Made by a program: the position numbers and the translations under genes. The notes below the pieces were generated by a model, which was not told the origin of the DNA, did no database searches, and saw only the letters and a program-made list of their open reading frames with translations. From Sinorhizobium sp. (GTDB taxonomy: Bacteria > Pseudomonadota > Alphaproteobacteria > Rhizobiales > Rhizobiaceae), in the NCBI GenBank assembly GCA_031178305.1, contig JAPSJG010000002.1, forward strand, positions 1 through 59,628: DNA of 59,628 nucleotides, given 5' to 3'. Shown here in pieces: positions 1,990 to 59,628 of this stretch; positions within the stretch are counted from its first letter, which is position 1; every line of letters begins with the position of its first letter.

Positions 1990-2504
1990 TTCTTAACCGA
2001 GCGCAGGACCGTGTTGCCGCCCATGTACAGGCCGCAGTAGGTCATGAAGATCGTCACGAACGACGCGAAATCGACAATCAGGACCAGCGTCGTGTGGGCG
2101 CCGATCGCCGACAGGAGCGCGTTGATCAGCGGGACGATCATCACGTACCACGCGACACAAGCCAGCATCAGCCACATGCCGGCAGGGCGCCACAGCCACC
2201 CGAACTGGCTTTCCTTAGCCATCTCCGACTTCATCAGATCGTGGGAGACCCGCAGCCGATCGGTATAGGCGGCGATAACTGATACCGGATCCTGCTCGAT
2301 CTCCCGAACCGCCGCCTCGAGCTGCTCGCGCGGCACCTGCGGGAGCTCTTCGACAGGCACTCCGACTTTGCCGGCGATCGCATCGACGATGACGCCGCCG
2401 ACTTCACCGGCGGCACCGCCGACGTGCTTTTGCAGCATGCCCTTGACGATCGGCGCGCCGATCTCGGCTGCGATGCCGATCAGGATCGGAATAATCGCGC
2501 TCAT
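1986..2504 (-). CDS. Phage 3TM-type holin
   Basis: MSAIIPILIGIAAEIGAPIVKGMLQ... plus WLWRPAGMWLMLACVAWYVMIVPLINALL typical of 3TM holins; next to endolysin. Confidence 0.75.
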   Translation of the reverse strand: MSAIIPILIGIAAEIGAPIVKGMLQKHVGGAAGEVGGVIVDAIAGKVGVPVEELPQVPREQLEAAVREIEQDPVSVIAAYTDRLRVSHDLMKSEMAKESQFGWLWRPAGMWLMLACVAWYVMIVPLINALLSAIGAHTTLVLIVDFASFVTIFMTYCGLYMGGNTVLRSVKK

Positions 2505-3250
2505 GCTGCTGCCTTTCCGTAGGCTTCCGCCCGAGCGTCGGCCGCCCGCTTGCGAATAATCATCACGACGGCGCCGATCGCCAGGAAGAGGAAGAGCGCC
2601 CCGAAGACCCAAAGCGCAGCCGGGTCCGCAGCGGCCGGCTCCACCACGGGCGCAGCGCCCGACGAGACGGCGCCGCCGGCTGCGGTTGCCGCCTTCCTGC
2701 CTGCGCTCTTGGATGTCTTGTCCGCTGCCTCTGCCTCAGCCCGTGCGTCCGCCTTGATTCGGCTCTCGGTCGCGCCCATGGCGGCAAGAGCCATCGCGAC
2801 TCCCCGGACCTCGATGTCGGCAACGCGGCGCCCCCAGCCCTTGCCGAAGGTTTTCCAGATGGTGAGCGACTGCATGAATGAAAGGCGGGTCCGGCAGACG
2901 CGCTTGACCGTGAGAGAGTGATCATTACTGCCGGCGGATGCTTTCAGCCACTTGCGTCCGCGGGAGACGCCGGAATTGACCGAAGCATCGTAGACGGCAA
3001 GGTCGACGCCGGGAAAGAGGTTGGGGGCGCCGCTAGCTTGCCAGAACTCGCTACGATAGAAGCGCAGCGCCTGCGCCTTGGTGACTGTCCTCACCGGCGT
3101 CCGCTTCATCTTCAGCTTGTCTTGATATTCGTGCCAACGACCTTCGGTAATACCGTACATCGTTTTCCCGCCGGGATCGTCGGGATGGTCGCTCCATCCT
3201 CCTTCCCACTTGGCGGTTATAGGGTGGCAAACGTCGAATCTGTCGCTCAT
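2501..3250 (-). CDS. Endolysin, GH108-type N-acetylmuramidase with C-terminal TM anchor
   Basis: EGGWSDHPDDPGGKTMYGIT, FYRSEFW, VYDASVNSGVSRGRKWLK motifs; C-terminal hydrophobic helix LWVFGALFLFLAIGAVVMII. Confidence 0.88.
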   Translation of the reverse strand: MSDRFDVCHPITAKWEGGWSDHPDDPGGKTMYGITEGRWHEYQDKLKMKRTPVRTVTKAQALRFYRSEFWQASGAPNLFPGVDLAVYDASVNSGVSRGRKWLKASAGSNDHSLTVKRVCRTRLSFMQSLTIWKTFGKGWGRRVADIEVRGVAMALAAMGATESRIKADARAEAEAADKTSKSAGRKAATAAGGAVSSGAAPVVEPAAADPAALWVFGALFLFLAIGAVVMIIRKRAADARAEAYGKAAA

Positions 3251-3253
3251 TTC

Positions 3254-3286
3254 GTGCAGCTCCAAGAGGGGGCCGCACTCATGCGC
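3254..3286 (-). promoter_or_regulatory. Leader element B: box GCGCATGAGTG + hairpin upstream of endolysin
   Basis: Minus-strand box 3286-3276; stem GTGCGGC/GCTGCAC (3278-3254, one G-U) with 11-nt loop cccctcttgga; ATG at 3250. Confidence 0.6.
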
Positions 3287-3356
3287 GAGATCGATTTTCA
3301 TTATCACGTGCGAGTTATTGCAACAATCCAGCAATTCCAGTATTTAGAGCAGGACT

Positions 3357-3399
3357 GCGCATGAGTGCTGACCCCCTATCAATGGAGTTAAGCACTCAT
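3357..3399 (+). promoter_or_regulatory. Leader element A: box GCGCATGAGTG + hairpin upstream of capsid
   Basis: Box 3357-3367; perfect stem ATGAGTGCT (3361-3369)/AGCACTCAT (3391-3399); RBS in loop, start codon at 3398 inside the stem. Confidence 0.65.
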
Positions 3400-4498
3400 G
3401 TCTCAGACAGTTGTCGCTTTCGGCGATCCAAAGGCCCAAAAGAAGTGGTCCGGCGCGCTCTTCATCGACATTACGAAGAAGAGCTATTTCGATCGCAAAT
3501 TCATCGGCACCTCTGACGAGTTCTGCATCCAGCGCTTGACCGATCTCGAATCGGAAGCCGGCGATACGATCTCGTTCGACCTGTCCATCCAGCTTCGAAA
3601 CAAGCCGACCTACGGCGACAATCGACTCGAGGGCAAGGAAGAAAACCTGAAGTTCTTCACGGACCAGGTGTTCATCGATCAGATGCGCCACGGCGTGTCG
3701 GCCGGCGGCAAGATGAGCCGCAAGCGCACCGCCCACAACATGCGCCAGATCGGCAAGAACCGTCTCTCCGACTATTGGTCCAAGTTCAACGACCAGATGC
3801 TGTTCATCTACCTGTCGGGTGCGCGCGGCATCAACGAGGACTTCATCGAAGACACGACCTGGGCGGGCCACGCCGGCAATCCGATTCAGGCGCCGGACGC
3901 GGGTCACATCATTTATGGCGGCACCGCCACGGGCAAGGCCTCGATCACTGCCGAATCGAAGATGACGCGTGCCGTGATCGAGCGCGCGCAGGTCCATGCC
4001 CGCATGATGTCGGCGAAGGACCCGAAGAACGCAAACATGATGCCGCTGATGATCAACGGCGAGTCGCACTACGTCTGCGTCATGAACCCCTTCCAGGAGC
4101 ACGATCTCCGCAATTCGGATCAGGGCGGTTGGCTCGAAATCCAGAAAGCCGCAGCTGCTGCTGAAGGCCGGAACAACCCGATCTTCAAGGGCGGTCTCGG
4201 CATGATCAACAACACTGTGCTGCATAGCCATGAATGGGCTATCCGCTTCAACGATTACGGCGCCGGTGCCGATGTCTCGGCAGGACGTGCGCTGTTCATG
4301 GGCCGGCAGGCTGGTGTTATCGCTTTCGGCTCTGCCGGTGGCTTCCGCTACACCTGGACGGAAGAAACCAAGGACCACGGTAACGAGCCCGTTGTCGCCT
4401 CTGGCGTGATCGACGGCGTCAAGAAGACGCGGTTCAACGACCGCGACTATGGCGTGATCTCGATCGACACCGCAGCAAAAGACCCCAACGCCGCCTGA
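3398..4498 (+). CDS. Major capsid protein (N4-gp56-like family)
   Basis: SYFDRKFIG..IQRLTDLESEAGDTISFDLSIQLRNKPTYGDNRLEGKEENLKFFTDQVFIDQMRHGV typical of this capsid family. Confidence 0.88.
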   Translation: MSQTVVAFGDPKAQKKWSGALFIDITKKSYFDRKFIGTSDEFCIQRLTDLESEAGDTISFDLSIQLRNKPTYGDNRLEGKEENLKFFTDQVFIDQMRHGVSAGGKMSRKRTAHNMRQIGKNRLSDYWSKFNDQMLFIYLSGARGINEDFIEDTTWAGHAGNPIQAPDAGHIIYGGTATGKASITAESKMTRAVIERAQVHARMMSAKDPKNANMMPLMINGESHYVCVMNPFQEHDLRNSDQGGWLEIQKAAAAAEGRNNPIFKGGLGMINNTVLHSHEWAIRFNDYGAGADVSAGRALFMGRQAGVIAFGSAGGFRYTWTEETKDHGNEPVVASGVIDGVKKTRFNDRDYGVISIDTAAKDPNAA

Positions 4499-12918: not shown

Positions 12919-13385
12919 AAGAAGTCGTCTACGAACCGGAAGCCGAGATGATTGCTTGGGCGGAAAGCCGCATCCCGGGCTGCAAGTTTCGCGACGACGC
13001 ACATGCGATCGGTATACGATCCGAAGCCGGCTTTCACGGCGTCGTCGTGTTCGACGCCTTCACTACAGCAGGATGCTGGATCAGCGTCGCCTCTGATGGC
13101 GGTCGCCGGTGGTTAACCCGAGAGCTCCTCATACGCGTCTTCGCCTATCCGTTTCTCCAGTGCGGGCATCCTCGCATCAACGCGTTTATCTCGGCTGGCA
13201 ATCAGGCTTCGCTCGCGCTTTGCGAGGGTTTGGGCTTTGTCCGTGAGGGCGTCATGCGGCAAGCCGGTTTCAACGGTGAAGATCTGATCATGCTCGGCAT
13301 GCTGCGAAGCGAATGCCGATGGCTCCCCCACCGAGTTGCTGGAAAAACCGGCCGGACACAGGTATACACAGAATGTCGCGCATGA
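12915..13385 (+). CDS. GNAT-like acetyltransferase
   Basis: INAFISAGNQASLALCEGLGFVREGVMRQAGFNGEDLIMLGML matches the GNAT C-terminal fold. Confidence 0.75.
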   Translation: MKEVVYEPEAEMIAWAESRIPGCKFRDDAHAIGIRSEAGFHGVVVFDAFTTAGCWISVASDGGRRWLTRELLIRVFAYPFLQCGHPRINAFISAGNQASLALCEGLGFVREGVMRQAGFNGEDLIMLGMLRSECRWLPHRVAGKTGRTQVYTECRA

Positions 13386-13411
13386 GTGTGACCTCAATCA
13401 AGAGGTGACAC
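13378..13411 (+). promoter_or_regulatory. Leader element C: box GCGCATGAGTG + hairpin
   Basis: Box 13378-13388; stem GTGTGACCTC/GAGGTGACAC (13386-13395/13402-13411), single G-G mismatch, loop aatcaa; RBS in stem; ATG 13413. Confidence 0.65.
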
Positions 13412-13412
13412 C

Positions 13413-14555
13413 ATGAGCAAAGGCGGCAGTTCCGCTCCATCTCCGGACCCGCAGATCGGGCAAGCGGCCCTTAAGCAGGCCGAGACCGGCGAAAAGTGGC
13501 TCCAGTTCTCGCAGGACGCATTCAAGGTCTCGACTGAGCGCCAGAAAGAGCTCGATGCGCTGACGAAAAAGGTTACCGAGCAGCAGCTCGGGCTCGCGAC
13601 GGAGCAAGCGAATTGGGCCCGCACCGATCGCGACCGGTACGAAAAAACCTACAAGCCGATCGAAGACAGCTTCATCAAAGAGGCAACGAATTATGCCACC
13701 GACGCGCGGCAGAACGAAGCCGCTGCCGAGGCTCGCGCCGACGTTCAGACTGCTGCGGCGAACCAGCGCGCCGCGACGGAGCGCGCCAGCGCATCGATGG
13801 GCGTCACTCCCGGCTCTGGAAGGTTCGCAGGCGTGCAGGCTTCAGGCGACATGGCAGCCACTCTGGCCGAAGCCGGTGCGGCCAATAGCGCGCGTCAGTC
13901 TGTCAGGGACAAGGGGCTGGCCCTCAAAGCGGACGTGGTGAATATGGGGCGCGGCCTGCCTGCGCAAGCGGCCGGCGGCGCCGGCGGCAGCGTGGCGGCC
14001 GGCGCAACGGCGCTGTCGGGAAATCAGGCGTCCAACAGCCAGTATCTCGCATCGACGAACATCATGGGGCAGGGCTACCAAGGTGCGATGCAAGGCTATG
14101 CCGGCCAAGCGCAGACGCTGAACAACCAGTACGGGCTCCAGCTCGATGCCTGGAAGGCGGAGCAATCGCTCAAGGCTCAGAACGCGTCCGGTATCGGGCA
14201 GTTCCTCGGCAGCGTTGTCGGCGCTCTCCCCTTCACGTCGGATGAGACCAAGAAGGAGAACAAGACAGAAATTCCCGAAGGCGAGGCGCTCGACGCCATC
14301 AACAACATGCCTGTCGAGGAATGGGACTACAAGCAAGGTGTCGAAGACGAGGGGCGGCACGTCGGACCCTATGCCCAGGATTTCCAGCGGGAAACGGGCA
14401 GTGGCGACGGCAAGAGCATCCTCCCGCAGGACGCGATTGGGCTGACGATGAAGGCCGTGCAGGATCTCGATAGCAAGGTCGACCGTGTAATTGAGGCGAT
14501 CGGGTTGGGCGGCGCAAGCTCGGCCCCGGTCAAGAAACAGAAGAAGGCGGCTTAA
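13413..14555 (+). CDS. Internal virion/tail protein with C-terminal S74-like intramolecular chaperone
   Basis: C-terminal SDETKKENKTEIPEGEALDAINNMPVEEWDYK..RHVGPYAQDFQRETG. Confidence 0.78.
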   Translation: MSKGGSSAPSPDPQIGQAALKQAETGEKWLQFSQDAFKVSTERQKELDALTKKVTEQQLGLATEQANWARTDRDRYEKTYKPIEDSFIKEATNYATDARQNEAAAEARADVQTAAANQRAATERASASMGVTPGSGRFAGVQASGDMAATLAEAGAANSARQSVRDKGLALKADVVNMGRGLPAQAAGGAGGSVAAGATALSGNQASNSQYLASTNIMGQGYQGAMQGYAGQAQTLNNQYGLQLDAWKAEQSLKAQNASGIGQFLGSVVGALPFTSDETKKENKTEIPEGEALDAINNMPVEEWDYKQGVEDEGRHVGPYAQDFQRETGSGDGKSILPQDAIGLTMKAVQDLDSKVDRVIEAIGLGGASSAPVKKQKKAA

Positions 14556-16426: not shown

Positions 16427-19400
16427 CTATCTGTAGATGGGATCTGCAAGCCGGTCGCGCAATTCCTTGCCAAGCGCCTCATTGCTGATCAGGACGCCGT
16501 CCTGCCTCTTGGCGGAAATGCTCGCTCGAGTCTTGATCGAGCGCTGCAACGTCTCCTTCGTGATCGCCACCGGAGCGTTGATCTTGACTGCGTTGAAGCG
16601 CTTGATGTCCTCGATCGCCTCGGCCATCGTTTCCTTATCCTTGGCGAGCGCGGCCATCGCGAACCGGCTGATGAGGCGCTGGCGCTTCTGCTTGATGCGG
16701 CTCTCCGCATCCTTCAGCGCCGAGTTCCGCTCCCACGTCTCGGCGACTTCAGCCGGCGTGAAGCCGAGCGCCTGGGCGATGATGCTCGGGATGCCGATCT
16801 CGTCCTGGGGCACGATCTCATCCCCTCGGATCGAGGTAACACCCTCGTCGGCATAGCGATATGCCTTCATCAGGTCCCGCACCGCCTTCGGAGCCATCAT
16901 CTCGATTCCGCGGGCGACGACCCCCTCGTCGGTGATGACGTTGAAGCCGCGGTAAAGCTGCTCACCGAGCGACACTGTGGCGCCAAGGGACTGCGAGAGC
17001 CAATACTGGTATTCGTCCTTCCCTTGGAGCTCGCGCGAGGGCGAGCGGAACCACAGGTCCGGCATGCCAATACGCGAGGTCAGGTCGATACCGAGATAGT
17101 GACCGGGAGCGCCATTGAGGACGATACCGCCGAGCTCGGGGCCAAGAATATCGACGATGTTTGCGCGGAACTGCTGTTCGAATGCCATCGGATCGTCGTC
17201 GTCGCCGAAGATCAGACCTGCAAGCGCCATGGCAAGGCTGTAGCCCATGACGCCAGACACGCCGGACATGAGGGCCATCATGCCCGTGATCCCGGCGACC
17301 TGGTACCGCGCCTCCCGGCGGGCCGCGGGCGTCTCGCCCTTCACCGCCTGATGGATATCGCGGAACATGCGGTAGAGCATGTTGATGTTGTGCTGGCGGA
17401 ACACCAGCGCGACCTTGGCAAAGTCGTTCTGCAGAAGCGCTGGACGAGACGAGTTGGAGTAGTCGAAGTGCGTTTTCCACGTCAGATCGTGTGCCGTGTC
17501 GATCGCGTCCGACTGGTTCTGGCCGGCCGCCCGCGCCATTCTGTAGGCGGCGAGGGCCGTGACTTCCCGGTTCCACACCTCGGCGCGGTGGAATGCCCAC
17601 GAGATGATGCCCATGACCTTCGCGCGTAGCGGAGAATACTCGACGCCGGTCTCGCCTACGCCGGCAAGATCATGGCTTTGCGTGCGATCGATCAAGCCCG
17701 ACTCGTAGAATGCTTCGATCGCTCTCTTCTCATCTTCTTTGAGGTTAGCCCGCGCAACCGAGCCGCGGCCCGCGACGGAATCGCGGGAGGCTTGGGCGAG
17801 CGCCTTGCCAGCCTTGAGAATGCCACCGAACCGGGCGCCGAGTATTGGCAGGCCGAGCATGACAGTTTGTGACATGTTGACCAGCGCCGAAGCCGGAGAC
17901 GCAGCAAGGAACCAGACGAAAGCCGTGCTCGTCATGGTCTGCGCCACCTTGCTCCCGGTCGGGTTCATCACCCAATCGTGGCGCTTCGAAAGCTCGTTGG
18001 CGAGCGTCATGGCGCGGGTCTGATCGTCCGCTTCCTTCGCCTGGTCGAAAGTCTGGTTGACGAGCTCCTGAAGCTCGAGCCCGAACTTCAGACGCGCCAT
18101 CTGGTGGGCGGCATGGAACATGTGCGACGAGAACACGCGCAACGCGTCGCCGGTAAAGCCGGCTGTGCCCTTGCGGTGGATAAAACGCTTGCGCGCGGAC
18201 AGGTCCGGCATGGACTCGAGGTAACGCTGCCAGACCTGATCCATCAGCTCGGGACTGACGCCGGAACCGCCGAGGAGTTCTTCGATCTCGGCGACGATGC
18301 GCGGGTCCATTGCACGGCGAAGGTCGCTGCCCGCCTCCATCACGCCAACTTCGAACTTCGCGTTCGGATAGTCCTTCTGCATCTGACGCACAGCGCGGTC
18401 CCGATCGGCAACGGTCTCGAATTTGGAGAAGCTGAGCACCTTGCCGTCGATGTCGCGCGCCGTCGCAAAGTACCGTCCGAAACGGCCAAGCGGGAAGTAC
18501 GGACCTTGAACTCGGCTGGCCTCGAACGCGATGCGCATGCGGGTGAGCCGGGCTTTCGCGGCCCACTGGCCTTTCGTCGTCGCGGCACGGTAAGCACTGG
18601 CAGCATCTTCTTCGGCATTCTTCTTATCGATCCCGGTCAGTCCCGCGTCCTTGATCTGCTGCAAGGTGCGTCTGTATCGGTCCTCAGCCTGGCGCAGCGC
18701 GATTTCCTGCGCCTTGCGGACGTTGTCCAGCAGGATTTCGTCAAGTTCCTCGGTCTGCTGCCTGTAGGCGTCGCGGACCTTGTTAAAGAGCTCACGCCCC
18801 TTCGGTGACAGGGTCGTATATGCCTTCCGCAGCGCCGCGTATCCCGGCATAGCTTGCGTCTCGGCATCCACCTTTGACGGATCGATGCCGGAGAGTGTCG
18901 CCTCGTGCATGAGGTCAGCGAGCGCCTGGGCCTTGGCCTTGTCTTTCCCGACGAAGCCGAGCCGGGTGTATTTCAACCATTCCTGCCCGATAGCGTCGGC
19001 TTCCGCGTGCTTGGTGCCCCTGAAGGCATCCATGATGCGCTTGACACGGAGGTATTCGCCCACGGCCTTCATGTTTGGCCGGGCAAGCTCGCTGAAATAA
19101 TTGAGGGGGATGGATTTGAGGATGGCGGGCTGAAGGTCAGTCAGCTTCCCGCGAAGATCCTCGACGATGCGGGTCTCGGTTACGCGTTGCCGCTTTTCTC
19201 GGCCTCGACCTTTTCCTTGATAATCTGCCGTGCTTGCTTCAGCGAGGCCGCTCGTGTCGGGTCGCCGGCCGGCATCTGGTTTACCCGCAACAGGTGCTCG
19301 CGCCACTTCTGCAGCGTGTCGAAGGGGCTCGGCGCGTCGATCGGCCCGCTTACCTGTGTTTTTGGGTCCATTGAAGATTTCTCCAGCCAGTTTATCGGCG

Positions 19401-22400
19401 GCTGCGTCGATCACGGCCTCAAAACCGGTGATCGCGGCCGCATCGTAAGGTGTGTTCGTGGTGAAGTCTATGACGTTCGCGCGATCGGCAGCCATCAATT
19501 TGCCGGCTGCATGGGCCTCATTGGCTTGATCGACCGTGATGGCTTTGCTGTTGAGTTGGGCTTGCAGGAAGCCTTGGAGCGCGTATTCGACACCGATCAT
19601 GGCGTTCTTGAGCTTTGCCATGGACAGCGCGGCAAGGTCTGGCGTTTCGCTCGACAACGCCTCCGCCGCTGCCACAGTCAGCGCAGCCCGTGTAACCTGC
19701 CCGTCGTGGCCCGCCGCCCAAATGCTGTACAGTCCGGGGTAGGCGAGGAAGCCGATATCGGCCGAACTGAGCGGTCCATTGCTCGGGTGGTTGTGGTAGA
19801 CGACCACCTTGCGATCAGGATTGGCCATCGCGGCCAGCAGCCTATTGTTCATGCCGGTGTTGGCCTTGTCGCCTGCCGTGCCGTATTCGACCACAGAGCC
19901 GTCGTCATCAAGCGCAAGCAGGTATTCGTGGCCGGTGCGCAGTCCGTCTGCGGTAACGCGCTCGATGGCCGCGTCACGCAGCGGAATGCCCTTCTTCAGG
20001 TCAGGCGTGCCCAACGAACGCAGGTTCCCAACCGCGCCCTCTACGGCCGGGTCGGGCCGTTTGTTCTGCTTGGCAGGCTCCGCCACCGCCGCAACGTCTG
20101 TGGTCACCTCTGTCGTTTGGCCCGCCACGCCCTTTGGCTTCGGCTTGAGCGCGTCTACCAATCGGCGGTGACGGGCGGCAGTCTCGTCGAGCTCCTGTTG
20201 GCCCGTCCAGGGCGCAATCTGCCTTTCGAGCGCCGGCGCCTGCCTCTCGATCTCGGCGATACGCTCCTTGTCGGCCGCTGGAATGCGGGCGAGGCCCTTG
20301 ATCGTGTTGACGATGCGCATGGCCGTGCCCGTTGGATCCATGTCCGCCGCGTCCTCGACGCTCACGTGGTAGTCGCGATCGCCCGCCAGCGTGATGTCGT
20401 ACTGGCGCGAGTGCATGTGCTCGATCGAAATCTTGAAGCCGGCGTATTCGCCGATCTCAGTTTCGCCCGCCCGCTCGATCAGGTCCTTGCGGATCGCCGC
20501 GATAACGGCGGCGCCAAATTCCTTATGCTTGTCGAATGCCTCACCCTTCACCGTCGCCGCGAAGGGCTTGCCTTCGACCGCCTGCGCACGCTGCGCGTCG
20601 GCCTCGACTTCGGGAAGGCGATTACGCAGCGATTGCGCTTCCTCGTTGAGCGAGCGAATTCGGCCCTTAATGCGATGCTGCTCGCGATCGTGCTCGGACG
20701 ATTGGCGTTCGAGCTGCTGCAGTTTCCGCCGGGTTTCCATTTCCTCTAGGATGAGGGGATTGCCCGATGCAGCCGCTTTCATCTCGGCCGCGTTGGCAGC
20801 CTCGCCGCCGATATCCTCGATATCGCGCTTCTTCAGGTCACCCTTGCGGATTTGTTCGATGAACTTCGCCTTGGCCTCGATCGTCTGCCACTGACGCGCA
20901 TCGAGCGTGTTCTCGGTGGCATATCGCATGATCTCGATCTCGAACCCTTCCGGATCCTCGGCATAGAGTTCGTTGCCCTGCCGGATACCGCGGCCGTCTC
21001 GTTGTTCAAGATCGGACGGGCGCCATGGCGCATCCAGGTGGTGCAGGCCAACAAGCCGGTTCTGCACGTTGGTCCCGGCACCCATCTTAGCCGTCGAGCC
21101 AAACAGGAATCGGATTTTGCCCGACCGCACCTTGCCGAACAGTTCTTCCTTCTGCGCCTCGGTATTGGCGTCATGGATGAAGGCGATTTCGCTTTCAGGG
21201 ATGCCGCGATCGATCAGCTTCTGGCGAAGATCGTCATAAACGGAGAACGAGCTCTGCAGCGCGAGGAAGTCGTCAGGTGACATCTTGTCGAGCGCTTCCT
21301 GCGCGGCCTCGTCGCCGTCCTCGGCCTTGGCGATCAAGTCGCGCAACTTGGCCTGTTCGGCTGCCATGGCCTTCTTCGGCGTAGACAGGTCGATGAACAC
21401 GAGCTGCGTTCCGCGCTTGTCGGTCCACTTCTTGTAGATGCGAACCATCTCGTCCGCGGCGCGATGAACCTTGGAACCGCGATAGTCCCCGTAGCCGGGA
21501 TCGACGAGACGCATGTCGAGCGCGGCCTTCCGCGCGTCCGACATGACCTTCAGCATGTTATCGGCGCCCTTTTCCTGCTTTTTGGGCAGGTTCTCGGCGC
21601 GCCAGACGATCGACCCCTTGGGATAGGCCAGGTTGCCAGCCTCGTCGGCACTGCCTTCGCCGATGTATTTCGCCTGGTCCGGAGAGCGCTCGACGACGAC
21701 GATGGTCGGCTTGCCTCCCTTGACCTTCGGGAGCGGCATAGTCCTTCCAAGGGCCTTCATCTGCGCCTTGATGTCGTCATTCGTGATGACGTCGGCGAAG
21801 GAAAGATACCGCTGCATCAGTTCGGGCACGTTGACGAACTTCGCAAACCGGCTGTTCAGCTTGTACTGGCCGGACGGCGAAAGCTCCCAATCTGTGACGA
21901 CTTCGCCAAACACCCTCGCCCAAGCATCGAAATGGGCGATGCCAAGGTCCGTCAGCGACTTCCGGTCAAGGTAGCGCTGGATTGTATACATCTCAGCCAT
22001 GGTGTTGCTGAGCGGCGTGCCGGTGAGGAAGGCGACGTTATTCCCTCCGGTCTTTTCCAGCACGAATTGCGTCTTCATGTAGAGGTCGGCCGCGCGCTGG
22101 CTGCCGGCGGCATTGCCGAGACCGGCCACGCGCTGCATGGACGTTGAGTAGGCGAGGTTCTTGAATTCGTGCGCCTCGTCGACTGTGATGTCGTCCACGC
22201 CGAGCTCGTCGAAGGTCAGGCCCTCGTCCTTCTTGCCGGCGTCGAGCAGCTTCTCCATCTTGGCCTTGAGGTTGTCGCGCCATTTGGTGAGCTGCGCGAC
22301 GTTGCGGCTCTTTTGGCCGGTCTCGCGGCGGAGCTCCGCAATGGACTGCTCAAGATCATCCATCTGCTCCTGGATGAACCGGGCCTCATACTCCGGGTTC

Positions 22401-25400
22401 ATGCCGATGCGGCCGAACGCCGAATGCGCGACGATGACGGCGTCCCAATCGCCCGTAGCGATGCGGGCGAACAGCCGCTTGCGGTTCTCCTTCTCAAAGT
22501 CGCGTTTCGTGGCTGCGAGCACCTTGGCGCCCGGGTACAGCTTCACAAAATCCGCGGCCCACTGGCCCACCAGGTGGTTGGGCACGACAACCATGGGCTT
22601 ACGTGCCTGCCCGATTCGGCGCTTCTCCATGATCGACGCAATGGCGGCGAATGTCTTGCCGGCGCCGACGGTGTGATCCGCTAGGGCGGTACCACCCTGA
22701 AGCCGCCGCCAGATGAACGATTTCTGGTGTGGGCGCAGTTCGATGATATCGTCACTCACCTTACCCGGGAGGGTCAGGTGCGATCCGTCATACTTCCGCA
22801 AGACGTCAGTGTTGAAGGTGTCGTTGTAGAGCCGAACAAGCTCTTCGCGGCGGGCATCATCCTGCCACAGCCACTTGTCCCACTCGGCTTTGACGCGTGC
22901 TGCCTTCTCGTTGGCCGCTTCCGTGGCTTCCTGATTGACAGCGGTCGAGCCATCACGGAACCGGTCGTGGATCGTGATGCTCTGGCCGTTAAGCACCGCC
23001 AAGAGCACAGTCTCGACGCCTGCGCGATCGGTACCGTATAGGGTCGAAGCGGCCGGGCTCGGGCGCGGGACTTCAACAGCCCATTTAGCGTTTGCCCTGG
23101 AGTAGTATGCCTTCCCGCGGGCGCCGCTTTCCGTGATGTGCATCGCGAAGTCTTCGATGTGCTTTGCGGGCACCCATGGCGCGCCTGGCTTCACATCAAT
23201 GTCGACTGCCTCGATGTCCGCCGGCTGCACGTCGCGGAGCGCGGCGATATTGCGGCGGAAGTCCGGATCCTGCTCCGCGGCACGCTCCGCCTCGGCGAGT
23301 TTCTGCTTGACGTTGCCGGAGAGGTACGCGTCAGCGGTCTCATAGGCGCCGGATGGCGTCTTGTAGACCAGCGGCCCCAATTCCTCGACGATGGCGTCTG
23401 CGGGCTTGCCGTACAGGAACGACATCGCATCAAGGTTGATGCGACCGAAGTCATTGAGGGAAGCAGCCAGTGCATCCTTTGCGCTGCTGGCACTCGTGAC
23501 CCGGCTATACGGCTGCTGCGTCCTCTTGGTGAAGATCGCTGCCTTTTGGGCGCTCGGACCCTTCGCGGTCTCGCCCGTCTTCTTTGCAACGGCGGGGCTG
23601 ATGCCCTTGTCGAAGCCCTGTTCGAGCGCGCTGATCTGCGGCCATGTCGGATCGTCGCGGAACAGTCGCTTGTTGGCGTCCGCATTGATTGGTCCGTGCT
23701 TGGCGACAAACCCGTCGTAGAGCGTGTTGAGCCGCTTGCGCAGGTTCTCGATCTGCGCGTCGCTGGCTTTCTCGTCGATCTGTGCCCGGCGGAGTTTCGC
23801 GAACGCATCGCGGACCCGGACCATGCCTTGCACCCGCGCCTTGGCGGTCTCGTTGGGATATTCCAGCACCTGGGAGACCGGCTGGCCGAGATGATCCGGC
23901 ATGCGCACATGCACTTCGCCATCCGGGGCCAGGAAAGCGGTTCCTACCTGCACGTCTGTGACGGTCTCGGGCACGTTGACCGTTTCCGGCACCACTGCGG
24001 CGCCGGGCTCGACCATGACATTCTGCGGCAATGCGCGGATTGCCTTTTCCAGTGCCTCCGACAGGTCCTCGCCTTCACGCGCGACGAGTGCGGGCTCATC
24101 CGGCCCGTACATGGTGCCGTACGCCCCGAAGTCGCCGAGCATCATTTCCGGCTTGTCGATGAAATACTGGTTGAGCGGGACCGCCTTGCCGTCCTTGCCC
24201 TTCCACTCGCCAACCTGCGTCCAAGACGTGTCCGGCTTGTCGCCCTCGAGTCTTTTGCGCAGGATCACGATATCCGTCGTGACCTCGGTACCGGCGTTCT
24301 TTAGGAACGCGTTGTTCGGCAGGCGGATCGCGCCGACGAGGTCGCTCGTCTTTGCGATCTGGTCGCGGGCTGCCGCGCTAGCCCCGTCAAGAAACCGGTT
24401 CGTGACGACCATCGCCAGAACGCCGCCGGGACGCAGCGCCTCGATCGCCTTCGCGAAGAAGAAGTTATGTATGGAAAGCTTGTTGAGGTGCCTGCGCTGC
24501 TTGTCATAGAGCTTTTCAGAGCCGAACGGCGGGTTCCCAATGGCAAGGTCGAAATAGTCGTTCGGCACCGTGAGCTTCTCAAAGCCCATGGGCGACTGTA
24601 TGTTGGCGCCCGGGTAGAGGTTCTTGGCTATGCCGCCCGTGATGTGGTCGAGCTCGACGCCGGTGATAGCAGCACCATCGCGCAGCTCGCCCGGCATGAG
24701 GCCAAGGAAGTTGCCGGCGCCGACGGACGGCTCCAGCACCTGACCGCCCTTGAAGCCGAGCCTGCGGGCAACGTCCCACACCGCGGACACGACTTCAGGC
24801 GAGGTGTAGTGAGCATTCCGTGTAGAGGATTCGGCGGAGGCGTATTCAGTCGAATCGAGAAGCGCCTTCAGCTCGGCCGCTTCCTTCTCCCATCCCTTCG
24901 CAACGCTACCGTCTTCACGATAGAACGCGTTGCGCAAGCCGCCCCATCCTACCCATTTCGCGAGGACGCTCTGTTCCTCACGAGTTGCAGCACGCTTTTC
25001 CTCGTCAAGTTTGCGCAACAGGCGGATGGCCGCGATGTTACCTCTGAATTTGGCCTTTGCGCCGCCTTCTCCGAGCTCGTCTGCATCCGTGATGACATAG
25101 TTCGTGGGCCGCTGCTGCGCAGGGGTTGCCGCCGATTGGACATCAACAAGGGTTTCGGATATATTTTCAGTGGGTCGCGGCGAGGCCGACGCAGTATTCC
25201 GGTCGCCCCACAAGTCGCTGAGACGGCGTGAACTTCTCTCAGTGCGCCGCGAACCCTTCTCAAAAGCCGTCAGCAGCCACGTCTTAGCGGTTCCGTCGTA
25301 ATCAAGACGCACGCCGGCGCGCCCGGTTTCGTCCTCAAGCTGAATGCGCCGCGTGGTCGAGCGTTCCGGGTCAACCTTCAAGCGCTCGATGAAGCCTTGC

Positions 25401-28400
25401 AGATCCTGCAGCACTTCCGGGTGCCAAGCGATGAGTTTCGCAAGGCCGGTACCGTTGCTCTGGTTGGAACCAGGTGCGCCCCAAACAAGGTCAATGGGGC
25501 CAACCTCGGGGTGATGAAGCGCGCCGATCGCGTCGCCGGTCTGCCTGCGCTCAAGCTCAAGGGCGGCTTCGCGCCATTTTCCTTCATAGCCGCGCAGGAT
25601 GGGGCCGAATGGCCCTTCCGTTACCTCGTCTGTGCCGTCTTGGTTTCTTCCGCCGGCAGGAGCAAGTAAGTCTCCCTGACCTGCTGCCACGCCTCGTCGG
25701 GTTTCACGCCCTGTTGCTCGAGCTGATCCACCGCCTGATACGTCTGCTCGGCTGCGTCCTTCAACGCCTGCTCCAGGAGCCCCGCCTGCTTCAGTTCCCG
25801 GTACCTGTTCGGCAGGTGCTCTTTCCAGTGCTCTCGACCGAGATTGATCCAGTTCTGCAGAAACATCTTCGGTGGTTCCTTCTTCGGCGCTGATGGCCGC
25901 GATGTCGGCGGCCTCGACTTCGGCAGCACTGGACATGCCCTCGAACGCGGAAGCGCGTGGATCATATTTGACCCCCATGTACCACGACTTCAAGTAGGGC
26001 CGCACGTCGTCGCCAAGGTCCGCAAGCATCGCCTTGGCAAAGGCGGCGAACGTGCGGGCGCCCTTCTCGATGTGGTAGCCGGCGAGCGTAATGCCGGCCT
26101 GCAGTATCTCCGGATCGATGCCGCTGTTGAGCGTGCTGCCTGACAGCTTCCGGCGCAACAATGCGCGCGCCTTCTCTGCCGCGTCCTCAGTAAAAATCTT
26201 GTTCTCGGATATGGATGGCTTTGCCTTCTCCGTCTTCAGCTTGGCTGCGGCCTTGGCCTCCGCCTCCAACTCCCATTCGGCTGGCGTATCGACAGTCTCC
26301 GCCAGATAGCCGCCGAACACAGCCTCGGCCTCAGTGGCGCGGATTTCGCGCCCATTGCCTTCCCTCGCGGCGACATAGCCCATCAGGTAGTCGTCGATCG
26401 GGTTGTGGCCGTCCTTGCGATACTTGGTGCCGTCTACCGGCCTGCGCTGCGGTTCCTTGCCGGCCTTGGCGTCCTGCCAGCCCTTCGCCATCTGATAGGC
26501 AACGGGGCTTTCCGGGTGCGGCTGGCCGAACTTGGTCCCCGCCCATGCTGCCTTCCACTCCTTAGAGCGAAACAAGGCACGGGGATTGATCTCGGACTGG
26601 GCAGCCGGCTCGCTGAATTGTTTTTGAATATTTTTCGCCGGATTTGCAGATTTCTCGCGGATCTCGAAACGCTTGCCGCTCTCGACCACCTCATGCGTCG
26701 CGCCCAGCTTCTCCTTGGCGACATGCGCCTGAGCCTTGTCGCGCGATCCGAACCACTTCGGAGCGAACGGCTCTTGCGTTTTGCCGGACTCGAGCCAGCC
26801 TTTGAAGCCGTCCAGGGTGGTCTCGCTGATCGCTCCAAGACCTTTCCAGCCGCTGGTGTAGTTTTCCATGTAGGCGGCGCGCGCTTCTTCCTCGCTGCCG
26901 TAGCCGACCATGACCTTGTGCTCGTCGAACCGCCCGCGAGCTGGGTCGCGCTGATCGACGACATAGACCTTCGATGAGCCGTCGAGCGCGTCAGTGCCCG
27001 GCTTCACAAACACGTCGATATGATCCTTGTCGCGGCCGACGGTGCCCCTGATGTAGCCGTAGTGGCTCTTCATCGTGACGGACCACGGCTTGCCGGATGC
27101 GCTCACACCCTTGCGTTCGGAACCGGCGGGGTTCTCGATCGAGATATCCAGCCCGCCGAGCGAGATGCGGCCAACTTTGTAATTGCCGGCTTCCTTCTGC
27201 GCCTGTGTCGGCTCCGGTAGATCGTTGTTCGGTGACGTCGCGGCCTCGTGTGCGGCCTCGTCAATCGGTTTTGCTACCGGCTTAGGCGAGGGGGCTTCGT
27301 TGCGCCCTGGCTGGCCTGTTAGCTCGACGATCTCGTTGCCGGCATGCATGCGCGAGTAGGCTTCATAGCCCGGAACGTCGCCTGCCCTGTCCCACAATTC
27401 GAGGGGATAGCGGCCTACGCCGGGTTCGGCATGGATCGGGATGTCGCGGCTGCCTTCGGACGCTCCCCAGCCATTTCCGGCCTTGTTCCACGTGACCAGC
27501 GTGGCCTTGCCGTCCTTGATCGCGACACGAGCACCCTTCGCGCCGAGACCTTGCAGGCCTGCGGCACTGAGCGCGCCGGCGTTCGTGTCGACATAGACCG
27601 TCTTCAGCGTCCGCGGCTTCCGCCCGCTATCGCCCTCATGGCCCGGATCGTTGCGAGCCGCCTTGTCGCGCGTCGTGGTGCCGTCGGCGTGCACCTGATA
27701 GACGCTGCCCTTGGCCGTTCTGAAGGTCCCGACCGGCGCCGGGTCCTGCTCGGCCGTTCCCGTGCCGCGCTCGGCATCCCTGACCGCGATCAGCTTCTTC
27801 TGGATGTTCGGGGTGAGGTTGCCCCACATCACGCGCTCGTTGCGCTTGATGCCGGCCTCGTCCAACACGCGCTTGCGGGCCTGAGCAGTCAGTTCAACGT
27901 CCCACCACTGGCCGGCTTCGTCCTTCGCCGCGACCGCTTCCGGTTCCTGCTTCGCGCGCGCCGTCTGGCGCTGCTTGAGCAGACGCTCGTTGACCGGATG
28001 CATCTTCACCGGAAGGGTGGATTTCGCCTCCTTCGCGGCACGCTCGACGCGGTACCGGTAGTCGTCGGCCATGCTGGCGAGGTCCTCGACGGACACGCCG
28101 AACTCGTCCGCCAGCCGCTTGCGCTCTGCCGGCAGCACCTTCGACATGTCCACCTGAGACGTGCCGCCGAGCTTCTTGGCAATCACCTGCTCGCGGGCGA
28201 GGTCGTAGAGATGCGCGTGCCTCTCGTCGGGCAGCACTACGGTCCGCTCGCCAAGGCGACGGCTGTTCGGGCCCGCATCGGCGGGTTCGCGCTCGATCGG
28301 CGGATTGCGTTCGAGCTCTTGTTGCTCGACCTGGTCCGGCGTCAGCCCACTGACGGAGAGCTGTTCGACGGGCACCTGATACGCCTTGCCCTGATCATCG

Positions 28401-31400
28401 ACGACAACGGCCTCGGTGCCATCCTCCTGATACGTCTCGACGCGCGCGGGGAAGCGCTCGCCATTGCTCCCCTCGACGATGACGCGGTTGCCAGGTTGCG
28501 GACGCGTCGGCCGCTTCTCGGTCGCGGGCTTCTGCTCGCGGGCAGGGGGGATTTCCGTGGTGGTCTCGGCCGCGATCGGCGCGGCAGGCTCAAGCGCGGG
28601 ATCGCTCGACAGCTCCGGCAGGACGTCACGAACGGGCGGTTCAGCCTGTGCCCGGCGCAGCGCTTCCGCTTGCACGTCCACCGGCTCGGCGATCTTCGAC
28701 AAGTTGGCGACCGGCACCTGGTAGACTTCGCCGGTACCGCCATCGACGACAATAGCCTCGTCGCCCTGGTAGCTCTCGACGCGCGCAAGCATCGGGTCCA
28801 TGCCTTCGGCGTCCACACGCACGGTCGCGCCGATCTCGGGGCGCCCGTCCTGCGGTACCGCTGATGCGGTCGTTGGCGCTGTGACATCGGGAAGGGTGCG
28901 CACTGCGCGCTCTTCCGCCTTGTTCTGCGCATGCTGCACGGCGCGTCCGAGCGGCCCTATCGGCTCCGGTACCGGCTCGCTTACATTGGCTGCCGTCTCA
29001 GCGTCCACCGCGGCCGGGCTCGCAGCGCCGCCAGCACCGCCCATGGCGCCGCCCATCACACCGCCAGTAGCTACACCAGCCGCGGCGGCTTCCTCGACGC
29101 CCTCGGTAATGCTCTGCGACGGGTCCACTCGCTTGACTGCGAGGTTTTCCGACATCGTCTGCGTGACGCCCTGCGGGAGCTCTTCAAGCACGCCCTCGGC
29201 GAAGGCACCGCGACCTGCGCTGCGCAGGACGCGCTGAGCGACATTGCCGCCGACGCCATCTGCGATGATCTTCGCGAGGGCCCGATCGCCGAGACCACCG
29301 AATGCGCCAGTCGTCACGCCGGCGACGATGAAGGCTTGCGTGGCTGCATCCTCGGTTACTGCCTTGATGGCATCGGCCTCGCTCATGCCGCCTTCGACCA
29401 TGTCGCGCACGGCTTCGGATTGAAGCAGCTGCTCGCGCGGGATTTGGCCAAGGCGATCGCGAACGCTGCGCGAGGATTCGGCACCGCCGAGCATTCCCTC
29501 GGACACTGCGCCGGCGATCGTTGCAGTTTTTGCCGCCGCTGCAGCAGCCGTTGCCGCTTCGGCGCCACCTGCAAGCATGCGCAGATAGGTCGCGCGGGCA
29601 AGCACGCCGCCCGGCAACATGGTGACGATAGTGCCCGGGGCCGATTCGCCGACGCCGCGGAGATAGCTGCGCGGATCGGACCAAGCAGGGCCGAATGTTC
29701 CGTTCGCCTCGTTCCACCACTTCTTGGCATCTGCCTCTTGCTGTCGCGGCGTGACGCTGGCGTCCGCCTTCGCGGCGTATTCCTCGAGTCGCTGCTCGGT
29801 CGGCTTCCCCGTCACCCACGTGTCGATCGCGTCCAGCGTCTCTACGACGGTCGGGCCGACGCCGGGGATCATGCCGACGGCTTCACGCGTGGCGAGACCG
29901 AGCCGGGCATTGCCCGCGGCAAGGATGCGGCCGAGATCGCCGACTACGCCTTGCGATCGGTTTTCTTCTTCCCAACGCTGTTTCCATGCCGGGAGCTCGG
30001 CTTCGTCAACCACCTGGTACCGGCCCGGCTCCTTCTGTTCGAGGGCCTGCTGCGCAGCACCGATACGAGCATTGTCCGCCTGATCGCGGGCCGCGATCTT
30101 CTCGCGCTCGGCTGCCGCTGCGGCTTCCGCCTCTGCTGCGGCCTGCTGCTCGCCGATAGCCTTGGCCTCCTGCATGAAGGCCGGATTGCTGGATGTGAAA
30201 TTCTCGTCGATGACTATGCCGCCCGGCGATTCCTGCTCCTTCGCTACCGGAGCGCCCGCCTTACCGCCGCGCGCGGTGGTGGTCTCAATGTGCCAAGGCT
30301 CATGGCCGAGCGGGAACGAAAGGCCGTAGCGCTCTGCGTTGGCGTGCACCCATTCGCGAACTTCTTTGGGAGCATCGGCGAAGCGTCCGCCCTTCCATCC
30401 AAGATCAGCCGCGTCGCCGTGCTGGTGGCGCGATCCGCCAGGCGCGCCGATGTTCTTCGACATGCCCGATGCCTTGAATTGCGGGCGCCACTTCTTGCCA
30501 GCCTCGACCGGGCCTAGCTTTGCAACGTCCGCAAGCCACGCATTTCGGTCGAGGCCATACTTGCCGGCGTTGACCGCGATGATCTCGGCCTGCCGTTCGG
30601 GCGAGCGAGCGCCGGACAGGATGTCGAGACCGGATTTGACGTGGTCGGGCGCATCGTTGAACATCGCGCTGAGGCCGGTCCTAAGCTCCGGCTTCATGTT
30701 CTCGATGTAGGACGTGGGCTTCCCCGGCTGGAGCTTGCTCAACAGCAGCGAGCCGTCGTCTTTCTGTTCCGGCCGCACCAACCGCGCCAGCCCCTTGCCC
30801 TCCGGGTTCGGGACGTGGCTCGTCGTCTCCGGCTCGCGGCCGAGCAGTGCATCAAACGGCGCCTCCGCATCACTACGCGCCTGCTCGCCTGTGAGCCCGA
30901 TTGCTTCCGTCCTGGGTGCGCCAGTGTTGGCTTTGGAGTTGTAGAACAGGTGTTGCCCGACCTTGGCCGTTTGCGGCATTTTGCCGGCCCAATCCGGATT
31001 GACGCTCGTCGCGTGGTAGTGGTCGGCGCCGCCTGTCGGGTCCTCGCCGCCTGCAAAAGCGCGCATGATCGCCGTTTCGGCACGCTTGCGGGTCTCTGGA
31101 TCCTGCATCGCCTTCAGCGCGCCGGGCCCGGGCTTTGCATAACCGGTGAACTGATCCGGTTCACGCACGATCTCGCCCGGCGATTTGCCGCGGACGCCAG
31201 CTCGATTCTTGATGACACTGGCGACCGCCAGCATGCCCTCGTCGCCTTCACCGGCCGCCTCCGCGATCACGGTGTTCACCATGTCGTTCCAGTCACGTTC
31301 CGGCATGTCGATGGGGGTGGAACGGCTCTCGGTCTTTGCTGACGCCGCCGACTTGAGGTCAAGCCCAAAGCCTGCCTTGGCGGGCTCACTGGCCGGCTTT

Positions 31401-31468: not shown

Positions 31469-31503
31469 GCGCGGTGCTCCATTCAGAGACCGCACTCATG
31501 CGC
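31469..31503 (-). promoter_or_regulatory. Leader element D: box GCGCATGAGTG + hairpin upstream of giant gene
   Basis: Box 31503-31493 (minus); stem GTGCGGT/ACCGCGC (one G-U), 13-nt loop ctctgaatggagc with RBS; ATG 31468. Confidence 0.65.
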
Positions 31504-31561
31504 GGAGAGATCGCGAATGTTATAGGTCGAGCCCGGCTTAAAGTGAAGCCGCGGCGAGAGG

Positions 31562-33520: not shown

Positions 33521-33757
33521 TCAACGGCCGAGCCCTGGCTTCGGTTTGAACAGGCTTTCCGCGTTCGCCTTCGCATCGGCTGCATCGAGGCGCGTCGGTG
33601 TTGGACGTTCTCTCGATTCAGCCAACACGATCTTGATCGGCCCCTGCTCGACGTCAAATCCGAGATTGACGCACCGGCCGGATTTCTCGCCGACGTGGAT
33701 CGTGCCCACGCCGGCGATCTCGACGGATTGCCCTACTTTCACTGTCAGTCGAAGCAT
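33521..33757 (-). CDS. CsrA-like RNA-binding regulator
   Basis: MLRLTVKVGQSVEIAGVGTIHVGEKSGRCVNLGFDVEQGPIKIVLAE aligns by eye with the CsrA core MLxLTRxxGExxxIG..VxVxxxxxxxVxxGxxAPxxVxxxR. Confidence 0.68.
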   Translation of the reverse strand: MLRLTVKVGQSVEIAGVGTIHVGEKSGRCVNLGFDVEQGPIKIVLAESRERPTPTRLDAADAKANAESLFKPKPGLGR

Positions 33758-41873: not shown

Positions 41874-42793
41874 TCTACCGCCTCCCTCGCGAATAGGGGC
41901 GTGTCGTCGCCGGCGTTCCGAGATGACGTCTGCGACAGGAGTGCCTCGGCTGCTGCCGGGTTCAGCCAGAGGACTTCCGTTCGTTCTCGGGCGCCATCAG
42001 CAAAGGTCTGCTTTTCGGTCCGGTACCAATCGGAAAGCATCTCGCCATAAAGAGGCGCGTCGTATCCCGAGAGGACGACCATGCCGGAGACGTTGCGCAG
42101 GAAGTCGAGCAGCTCGGCATGATCGCTGTTGGTGAGCTCGTGCCGATACATGCGGTCGCGCAGTCCGTATTTGCTTCCCTGTGCTCGCGTCTCATGCATG
42201 TAAGGCGGATCGACGTAGTGCAGTGTGCGCTCGGCGTCGTGTTGTGCCATTACTTCAATGGCGGGCCTGTTCTCGACGACCACGCCTTGCAACCGGTTGA
42301 TCAGCGCTAACATCGCGCTCGGATAGTTCGCCCAGTCGGTCGCCGGCGTGGTGCCACTCCTACTGGAGGTCGCGCGAAATCCGGTCGATCGATGTCCTGT
42401 GGCCTGACTAGCGTGCGCATTGGAGCCGAAGCCCATGAACGACCTGATGACGAGGCGCCGGGAGCGCTCGATCACATCGTCGGTGGGCTCATAGGCGGCC
42501 TTGAACTCGGTCCGGGCAAACGGCGTCAGCTTGAGCATCTCGTGAAGTCGGCTCGCCAGTTGCGGATCCCGCATGACGCGGAAGAGGTCAACAACCTCGT
42601 CGTCGAGATCATTGTACACTTCGGCATAGACGCGCTGCTTGCGGATCAGAACGCTCGCGGCACCGCCGAACGGCTCGACATAAACACGATGGGCCGGGAA
42701 ATGGCTGATAATCCACGGCGCAAGTCTCCACTTGCCACCATGCCATCGGAGAGCGGGGCGCGTCGGAACCCTCGCGAGATTGGCGGGGAGCAT
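41870..42793 (-). CDS. DNA adenine methylase (D12/Dam class)
   Basis: LRWHGGKWRLAPWIISHFPAHRVYVEPFGGAASVLI..LHYVDPPYMHETR. Confidence 0.92.
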   Translation of the reverse strand: MLPANLARVPTRPALRWHGGKWRLAPWIISHFPAHRVYVEPFGGAASVLIRKQRVYAEVYNDLDDEVVDLFRVMRDPQLASRLHEMLKLTPFARTEFKAAYEPTDDVIERSRRLVIRSFMGFGSNAHASQATGHRSTGFRATSSRSGTTPATDWANYPSAMLALINRLQGVVVENRPAIEVMAQHDAERTLHYVDPPYMHETRAQGSKYGLRDRMYRHELTNSDHAELLDFLRNVSGMVVLSGYDAPLYGEMLSDWYRTEKQTFADGARERTEVLWLNPAAAEALLSQTSSRNAGDDTPLFAREAVE

Positions 42794-42796
42794 GCG

Positions 42797-43198
42797 TCAC
42801 GCCTCCGCATCATCAGCCGGGATCATGCCGAGCGCTTGCAGATAGGTATCGAGGACGGCCTCTTGCTCCATCCGCTCGTCAGCGTCCTGTTTACGGATCG
42901 CAATGACCTTGCGCAGTATCTTGCTGTCGAAGCCCATCGACTTCGCTTCGCCGTAGACGTCCTTGATGTCGTCAGCGACCGTCTTCTTCTCTTCCTCGAG
43001 TCGCTCGATGCGCTCGATGAAGGCACGCAACTGGTTTCTCGCGACGGCGTGCACCGACGCTTCTCCGGTTTCCCTGCTGCTGAAAGCTTCGACCTGGCCA
43101 GATAACCGAGCGGCGCCGGAACTATTCGCCGCTTGCGCGGTCACGGCTCGGGCCGCCCCCTTGAACTTCCCTTCTGCAAGTCCGGTCTGCAACGTCAT
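42797..43198 (-). CDS. GapR-family (DUF2312) DNA-binding protein
   Basis: [69 protein letters not shown]. Confidence 0.88.
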
Positions 43199-44949: not shown

Positions 44950-44992
44950 TTCAGTCAAAACGAAATTTCAGTCAAGAAAAAATTTCAGTCAA
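44950..44992 (+). promoter_or_regulatory. Operator cluster: 3 x TTCAGTCAA at 17-bp pitch
   Basis: Exact copies at 44950, 44967, 44984 between divergent regulators. Confidence 0.75.
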
Positions 44993-59501: not shown

Positions 59502-59628
59502 CTCTCTGTCCGCCAACAGCATCTCCTAAGACCTCCGATAGATACTGATGAGGCCTTGATCTGCTGGGTTTTCTCATGCTTTGTGTCTCCCATCGGTTCC
59601 CATCGATAGAGACCACTACCCGCGCATT
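59502..59628 (+). repeat. attR: 127-bp perfect direct repeat
   Basis: Identical by eye to 80-206; carries the tRNA 3' end ctctctgtccgcca. Confidence 0.93.

Follow-up and report, generated by a model that had tools for sequence, protein, structure and literature searches.

A prophage of the PBC5 type, which makes up the whole stretch of DNA analysed here (59.6 kb, hereafter the window), carries in front of its late genes a repeated RNA element whose 3' half can pair with the SD and start codon of the following gene. We regard it as very likely that this is an RNA element with a covarying start-codon hairpin. The fuller explanation, that the leader is bound by a phage CsrA-like protein which probably activates translation of the late genes, is in our estimate an even chance.

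Boxed leaders in the window and in related phages

In comparisons of the capsid protein, identity to the prophage was 89% for Sinorhizobium phage PBC5, 87% for Agrobacterium phage Atu_ph08 and about 64-68% for a group including Erwinia phages Pavtok and PEp14, Pseudomonas phages Itty13 and Skulduggery, Ochrobactrum phage POI1126, Serratia phage Parlo and Burkholderia phages DC1 and BcepIL02. The gene set (terminase, portal, major capsid, internal virion protein and DarB-like giant protein) agrees with the PBC5 type. No further close relatives were found by class- and phylum-wide genome searches using the capsid. An exact direct repeat of 127 bp is present at positions 80-206 and 59502-59628; the left copy comes after a tRNA-Ser gene (4-93), and the right copy spans phage DNA back into the left end of the phage. 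This arrangement fits an attL at one end and an attP junction at the other, so that integrated and excised circular forms would both be present in the sample. In the regulatory region, AATTTCAGTCAA (inverted form TTGACTGAAATT) occurs four times, at 44964, 44981, 46053 and 46087, and these copies are possible repressor operators.

The 11-mer GCGCATGAGTG was found in five exact copies in the prophage, at 253 (+), 3286 (-), 3357 (+), 13378 (+) and 31503 (-), and once in the other 3.93 Mb of the 3.99-Mb assembly; a reversed control pattern occurs once. The extra copy (contig C380) was rejected as a leader, being a chance match at the start of an ordinary chromosomal CDS. Four of the prophage copies precede genes in both orientations, with 24-30 nt between the end of the box and the ATG: the major capsid protein gene (3398-4498, +; PHROG 334), the endolysin gene (2501-3250, -; PHROG 315), a virion structural (internal) protein gene (13413-14555, +; PHROG 8003) and the giant protein gene (16427-31468, -). 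The last is a single gene of 5013 codons (5013 aa from the ATG at 31468) that occupies a quarter of the phage; its relatives are annotated as DarB-like antirestriction proteins, and the counterpart region of PBC5 is annotated as two DarB-like genes. An initial annotation of this DNA had reported these four copies and their distances, and both were confirmed. It had missed the copy at 253, and the conserved unit proved to be 12-13 nt rather than 11; the wider consensus, the alternative box hairpin and the phage CsrA-like protein described below were likewise absent from it.

The capsid leader (3357-3400, +) consists of the box GCGCATGAGTGC (3357-3368), the SD TGGAG and the ATG at 3398-3400, with a stem ATGAGTGCT/AGCACTCAT that traps the start codon. 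In the endolysin leader (3248-3286, -), the box at 3286-3275 is accompanied by a GTGCGGC/GCTGCAC hairpin whose loop contains TTGGA; the ATG lies at 3250-3248. Both of these stems, as previously described, were recovered in the predicted minimum-energy folds. The leader of the internal virion protein (13378-13415, +; box GCGCATGAGTGT; ATG at 13413) contains the stem GTGT-ACCTC/GAGGT-ACAC, and that of the giant DarB-like polyvalent protein (31466-31503, -; box 31503-31492; ATG at 31468) the hairpin GTGCGGTCTC/GGAGCACCGC. The fifth box (253-264, +) has a different position, at the start of the integrase gene, where the ATG (257) is inside the loop of the box hairpin itself (6-bp stem GAGCGC/GUGCUU); the same arrangement is present in phage PBC5 at 961.

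The -10-like hexamers noticed in the initial annotation are also present: TATTTA for the capsid (3341-3346, +), GATAAT for the endolysin unit (3300-3305, -), TATACA for the internal-protein unit (13363-13368, +) and TATAAC for the giant-protein unit (31519-31524, -), ending 10, 13, 9 and 15 nt upstream of the box, respectively. By consensus, the capsid hexamer would be combined with a -35-like TTGCAA (3318-3323) across a 17-nt spacer. Scored for a -35/-10 match, 36 non-redundant upstream sequences from relatives reached 7.83, compared with 6.30 (sd 0.15) in dinucleotide shuffles, none of 500 of which scored as high; thus, sigma-70-type promoter hexamers occur above the shuffled expectation. 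The distance from the end of the -10 element to the box was about 7-21 nt in nearly all leaders. By normal promoter spacing, transcripts are predicted to start between 0 and ~12 nt before the box, and the box should therefore lie near the 5' end of the mRNA because a sigma-70-like promoter sits just upstream.

A search of related prophages, which the initial annotation had suggested, found the box and the hairpin in homologous leaders. In total, 58 leaders with the box (40 of them non-redundant) were identified in PBC5/Bcep22-like podophages of alpha-, beta- and gammaproteobacteria and in one F116-like phage; they precede capsid genes and often also endolysin, internal-virion and giant genes. 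PBC5, Atu_ph08 and prophages of the Rhizobium group have the exact box ahead of the same genes as the window. More distant relatives keep GCGC, followed by A-N-G-A, an optional fifth base and GYGC, so the 11-mer of the window is one version of GCGC-ANGA(N)-GYGC (consensus GCGCANGA(N)GYGC), and the SD lies outside the box in nearly all leaders. POI1126 has five boxed leaders (capsid, a virion gene, internal protein, giant protein and endolysin), and the F116-like phage E220, whose capsid is only 25% identical, has three boxes, two of which are leader-like. In E220 (locus L051), the box at 26981 is very near an ATG (GCGCAGGAGTGCGAAATG), and the AGGAG in its loop could be the SD itself.

Among the 40 non-redundant leaders, columns G1, C2, G3, C4, G7, A8, G10 and G12 are invariant and A5, T11 and C13 are kept in 39, and the columns flanking the box carry 0-0.6 bits, close to random. 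It should be noted that a pattern search could inflate such invariance. However, the capsid leaders were gathered by capsid homology and not by the box, so the conservation is not merely a product of pattern selection; all complete leaders of capsids at least 45% identical carry the box. A comparison of four leader-bearing loci with the Rfam covariance models yielded nothing at E values up to 1. Taken across many phages, this conservation, together with the covariation described below, strongly supports the earlier proposal that virion and lysis genes are coordinated through a common late-gene leader.

Two competing hairpins

The box can take part in two hairpins. The long one joins the 3' half of the box (GYGC plus flanking bases) to an arm located at the SD or start codon; in free RNA, this pairing of the GYGC arm with the start region was predicted with a probability above about 0.5 in 38 of the 40 leaders, and the ANGA loop was occluded in 32. 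The stability of the long hairpin ranges from -10 to -25 kcal/mol. Its arms differ among phages, for example AUGAGUGCU/AGCACUCAU in the capsid leader of the window, AUGACGUG/CACGUCAU in POI1126, GGAUGUGC/GCACAUCC in BcepIL02, and GACGUG and CUCCAA with UUGGAG and CACGUC in a further prophage (genome G281, locus L021). When arms were swapped between leaders, the pairing energy was -10.6 kcal/mol, compared with -14.7 kcal/mol for the leaders' own arms, and none of 20,000 permutations was as good; significance was retained when capsid, endolysin and internal-protein leaders were each analysed on their own. Chance and shared composition are therefore ruled out.

The short hairpin is formed by the box alone, with GCGC and GYGC making 4 bp over an A-N-G-A(N) loop of 4 or 5 nt. 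Both substitutions seen in its stem (T11 to C and C13 to T) retain pairing, and the change between 4 and 5 loop bases leaves the stem intact. What chiefly suggests that this hairpin matters is the invariance of GCGC, which the long hairpin does not require. The two forms are mutually exclusive, as both use the 3' half of the box, and it is the long form that prevails in free RNA. Constraining the fold to the box hairpin in silico costs ~7.5 kcal/mol relative to the free ensemble, a price that a tightly bound protein or co-transcriptional folding would have to pay. With the box hairpin forced, opening of the AUG rose clearly (from 0.27 to 0.54) and that of the SD slightly (from 0.26 to 0.34).

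A phage CsrA-like protein and its proposed control of late genes

The proposed trans factor is a previously overlooked CsrA-like protein of 78 aa (MLRLTVKVGQSVEIAGVGTIHVGEKSGRCVNLGF...), encoded at 33521-33757 (-) in the terminase-portal unit. A Pfam search of the assembly for a canonical CsrA found none, and the divergent gene emerged only via synteny. All annotated phages of the Bcep22/Pavtok/Itty13/Lasta/Parlo type that were examined have a CsrA-like gene of 60-70 aa just before the capsid gene; in Rhizobium-type genomes the gene follows a portal-side gene and is unannotated or called hypothetical. The window protein scored 18.1 bits against Pfam PF02599, below the cut-off of 27, and its relatives in Itty13, BcepIL02 and Parlo pass that cut-off. 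A profile of the subfamily (A2) matched solved structures of CsrA/RsmE, namely RsmE 2jpp (2.5e-9), 2bti (5.3e-7) and 1y00 (5.3e-7). The AlphaFold model of the window protein was poor (pLDDT 61, no PDB match); for a relative (locus L012) pLDDT was 71.5, and the top PDB matches were CsrA/RsmA, with a probability of 1.00 but an E value of 0.06. Of two RNA-binding residues of CsrA, L4 is kept in the window protein, and the position of R44 is basic in several beta/gamma members but not in the Rhizobium-type proteins. Assignment of the window protein to the CsrA family thus rests on the subfamily profile and on the predicted structure of one relative.

Among the phages whose genomes were examined whole or nearly so, each of the 12 that encode a member of the late CsrA-like subfamily has between 1 and 5 leader boxes, and none of the 6 comparison phages without the late CsrA-like gene has any; the T4-like phage MK373784 served only as a negative. 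Five more prophage-bearing genomes also have the CsrA-like gene. Vibrio phage D60 (capsid 30% identical) has neither box nor gene and the more distant E220 has both, so the tie does not simply follow capsid similarity. No CsrA-like match was found within ~10 kb on each side of five boxed loci (L001, L002, L006, L007 and L011). The only boxed locus in which the gene proved to be absent (genome G014, locus L020, contig C28) seemed to be a counterexample but is a prophage remnant that has kept its boxed capsid and endolysin leaders and lost the portal, terminase, internal and giant genes. Phage PTXU04, in which csrA knockdown gives small plaques, was rejected as a member of the group, as it has no box and a different, more canonical type of CsrA. 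E220 has two CsrA genes (42461-42832 and 27378-27584), one canonical and one of the late divergent subfamily, and the 3' end of the latter overlaps the box of the next gene. Co-occurrence in every intact boxed virus examined suggests that the CsrA-like protein controls the virus's own late genes; it could also reflect shared descent.

On the basis of these results, we propose the following mechanism. From a sigma-70-type promoter, transcription would begin a few bases ahead of the box. In the unbound transcript, the 3' half of the box would pair at the SD or start codon and hold translation down. Folded alone, the box would form the 4-bp GCGC/GYGC hairpin and display the A-N-G-A(N) loop, which resembles a CsrA/Rsm site. 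The phage CsrA-like protein, made from the terminase-portal unit, would bind this loop and pull the box out of the long hairpin, thereby freeing the SD and start codon of the capsid, internal-virion, giant and lysis genes. Neither in the window nor in POI1126 does the terminase-portal-CsrA unit carry a box, and an order with the CsrA-like protein first and the boxed units second is therefore possible. At the integrase, the sign would be opposite because the box hairpin itself contains the start codon, and the protein would repress there.

Judging from co-occurrence and site resemblance, the CsrA-like protein probably controls the late genes via the box. Given such control, there is a good likelihood that its sign is activation, since free RNA buries the loop, so that binding and trapping of the start exclude each other. 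On the other hand, most CsrA regulation is repression, which counts against activation. The loop, one G short of the canonical ANGGA site, and the lack of conservation at CsrA R44 in the Rhizobium-type proteins also weigh against the proposal. A more ambitious reading, which we offer only tentatively, is that a phage relative of CsrA with its specificity shifted to an ANGA loop has become a dedicated late regulator, acting through one hairpin of 12-13 nt to expose the start sites of virion and lysis genes, and in some phages to shut the integrase start, across phages of alpha-, beta- and gammaproteobacteria.

Several other explanations have to be weighed against this proposal. The most serious, which we nevertheless consider unlikely, is that a CsrA-like dimer binds the box with high affinity and the SD region as a second site, so that late translation stays repressed until the protein becomes scarcer or is packaged. 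This would match the classical glgC-type mechanism of CsrA (PMC7652899); GGA is present downstream of the box in 24 of the 40 leaders, and a JC1 virion preparation yielded one CsrA peptide (PMC9144972). However, the other 16 leaders, including most of those of internal-protein genes, have no downstream GGA, and such a repressor would not need a conserved default-off hairpin that uses the box as an arm and hides the ANGA loop in 32 of the 40. It is less likely still that the 5' hairpin acts purely in cis, by protecting the mRNA from RNase E or by setting the translation rate, with the CsrA-like gene unrelated to it. The stability of the hairpin and its place near the 5' end agree with this, but a purely cis role would leave unexplained both the near-invariant sequence of 12-13 nt, whose GCGC has no need to pair in the long form, and the link with the CsrA-like gene.

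The initial annotation had left a choice between a promoter or activator site and an RNA operator. We consider it improbable that the box acts as DNA during transcription, either as a late activator site or as an ops-like pause or recruitment element just past the start site, even though it adjoins the -10 element and GCGCAAGACGTG and the ops element seem to have GCG..AG.CGTG in common. The evidence favours a 5'-proximal RNA operator because the loop varies between 4 and 5 nt, the stem substitutions retain pairing, the distance from the -10 element varies and the start-codon arm covaries; a DNA site needs neither the variable distance, the one-base loop variation nor the covarying arm. Readings of the boxB type (lambda/P22) and of the ops type were set aside on account of the variable distance and the start-codon covariation. 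Finally, chance or plain inheritance of a short sequence, which the origin of some leaders in close relatives might suggest, has already been refuted, both by the five copies in the phage against one in 3.93 Mb and by retention of the box while flanks and spacers diverge, with no swap among 20,000 as good as the natural arms.

If the proposed activation by a CsrA-like protein is true, the phage-borne CsrA-like genes of a large phage group would have a native target, in hosts some of which are without a Csr system. Burkholderia cepacia and Burkholderia cenocepacia are reported to lack an endogenous csrA (PMC7366521). Given that report and the lack of any canonical CsrA in our Pfam search of this assembly, a host Csr regulon is an unlikely target there. 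Moreover, a whole late regulon would be under post-transcriptional control by one repeated RNA element, and the protein-RNA pair would have a specificity unlike that of classical CsrA. With 40 natural leaders and matching proteins, the proposal is directly testable.

Relation to known systems

Phage translational operators and activators, such as the MS2 coat operator and Mu Com on mom, resemble the proposed system in that a phage protein recognises a start-codon hairpin in the leader; they involve other proteins and a single target gene rather than a late regulon. The SAS/ESAS sequences of cluster K mycobacteriophages are also short conserved sequences before many phage genes, some with an inverted repeat, and rare in the host (PMC3203893). 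The box does not belong to them, as SAS (GGGATAGGAGCCC) contains the SD, has no known trans factor and is unrelated in sequence, whereas the box is predicted to lie near the 5' end of the mRNA and to pair with the start region.

Phage-borne csrA genes are known from Bcep22-like phages, F116 and PTXU04, and the protein of Bcep22-like phages is the same as that discussed here, already annotated as CsrA-like (PMC7366521, PMC8450108, PMC9144972, PMC11879866). Phage csrA has been read as a moron or as serving host manipulation or anti-defence (PMC9144972, PMC8450108, PMC11879866), and the authors who found one CsrA peptide in JC1 virions called its role unknown (PMC9144972). In the accessible parts of the literature located, no phage RNA leader is named as a target of phage CsrA, and the boxed leader itself is not described; the original Bcep22 paper (PMC3187461) lies outside that scope.

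The closest likeness is to CsrA/RsmA/RsmE. Sites of the CsrA family are ANGGA(N) loops on short stems, and in Escherichia coli, activation of ymdA by CsrA works through the opening of a hairpin that sequesters the SD (PMC7652899). As in the ymdA case especially, there is a small CsrA-family protein, a short 5'-proximal hairpin whose loop reads A-N-(G)GA, and an SD-trapping hairpin to be opened. The leader system works like Csr regulation but departs from it on two narrow points, the exact ANGGA site and the Pfam cut-off for the window protein. A canonical CsrA site has an ANGGAN loop on a stem of up to about 4 pairs; the stem of the box has 4 pairs but its loop, ANGA or ANGAN, is one G short. 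The phage system further differs from CsrA/RsmA/RsmE in its phage-encoded, divergent subfamily, in a near-identical element present in up to five late units, and in a covarying competition between the box hairpin and the start hairpin.
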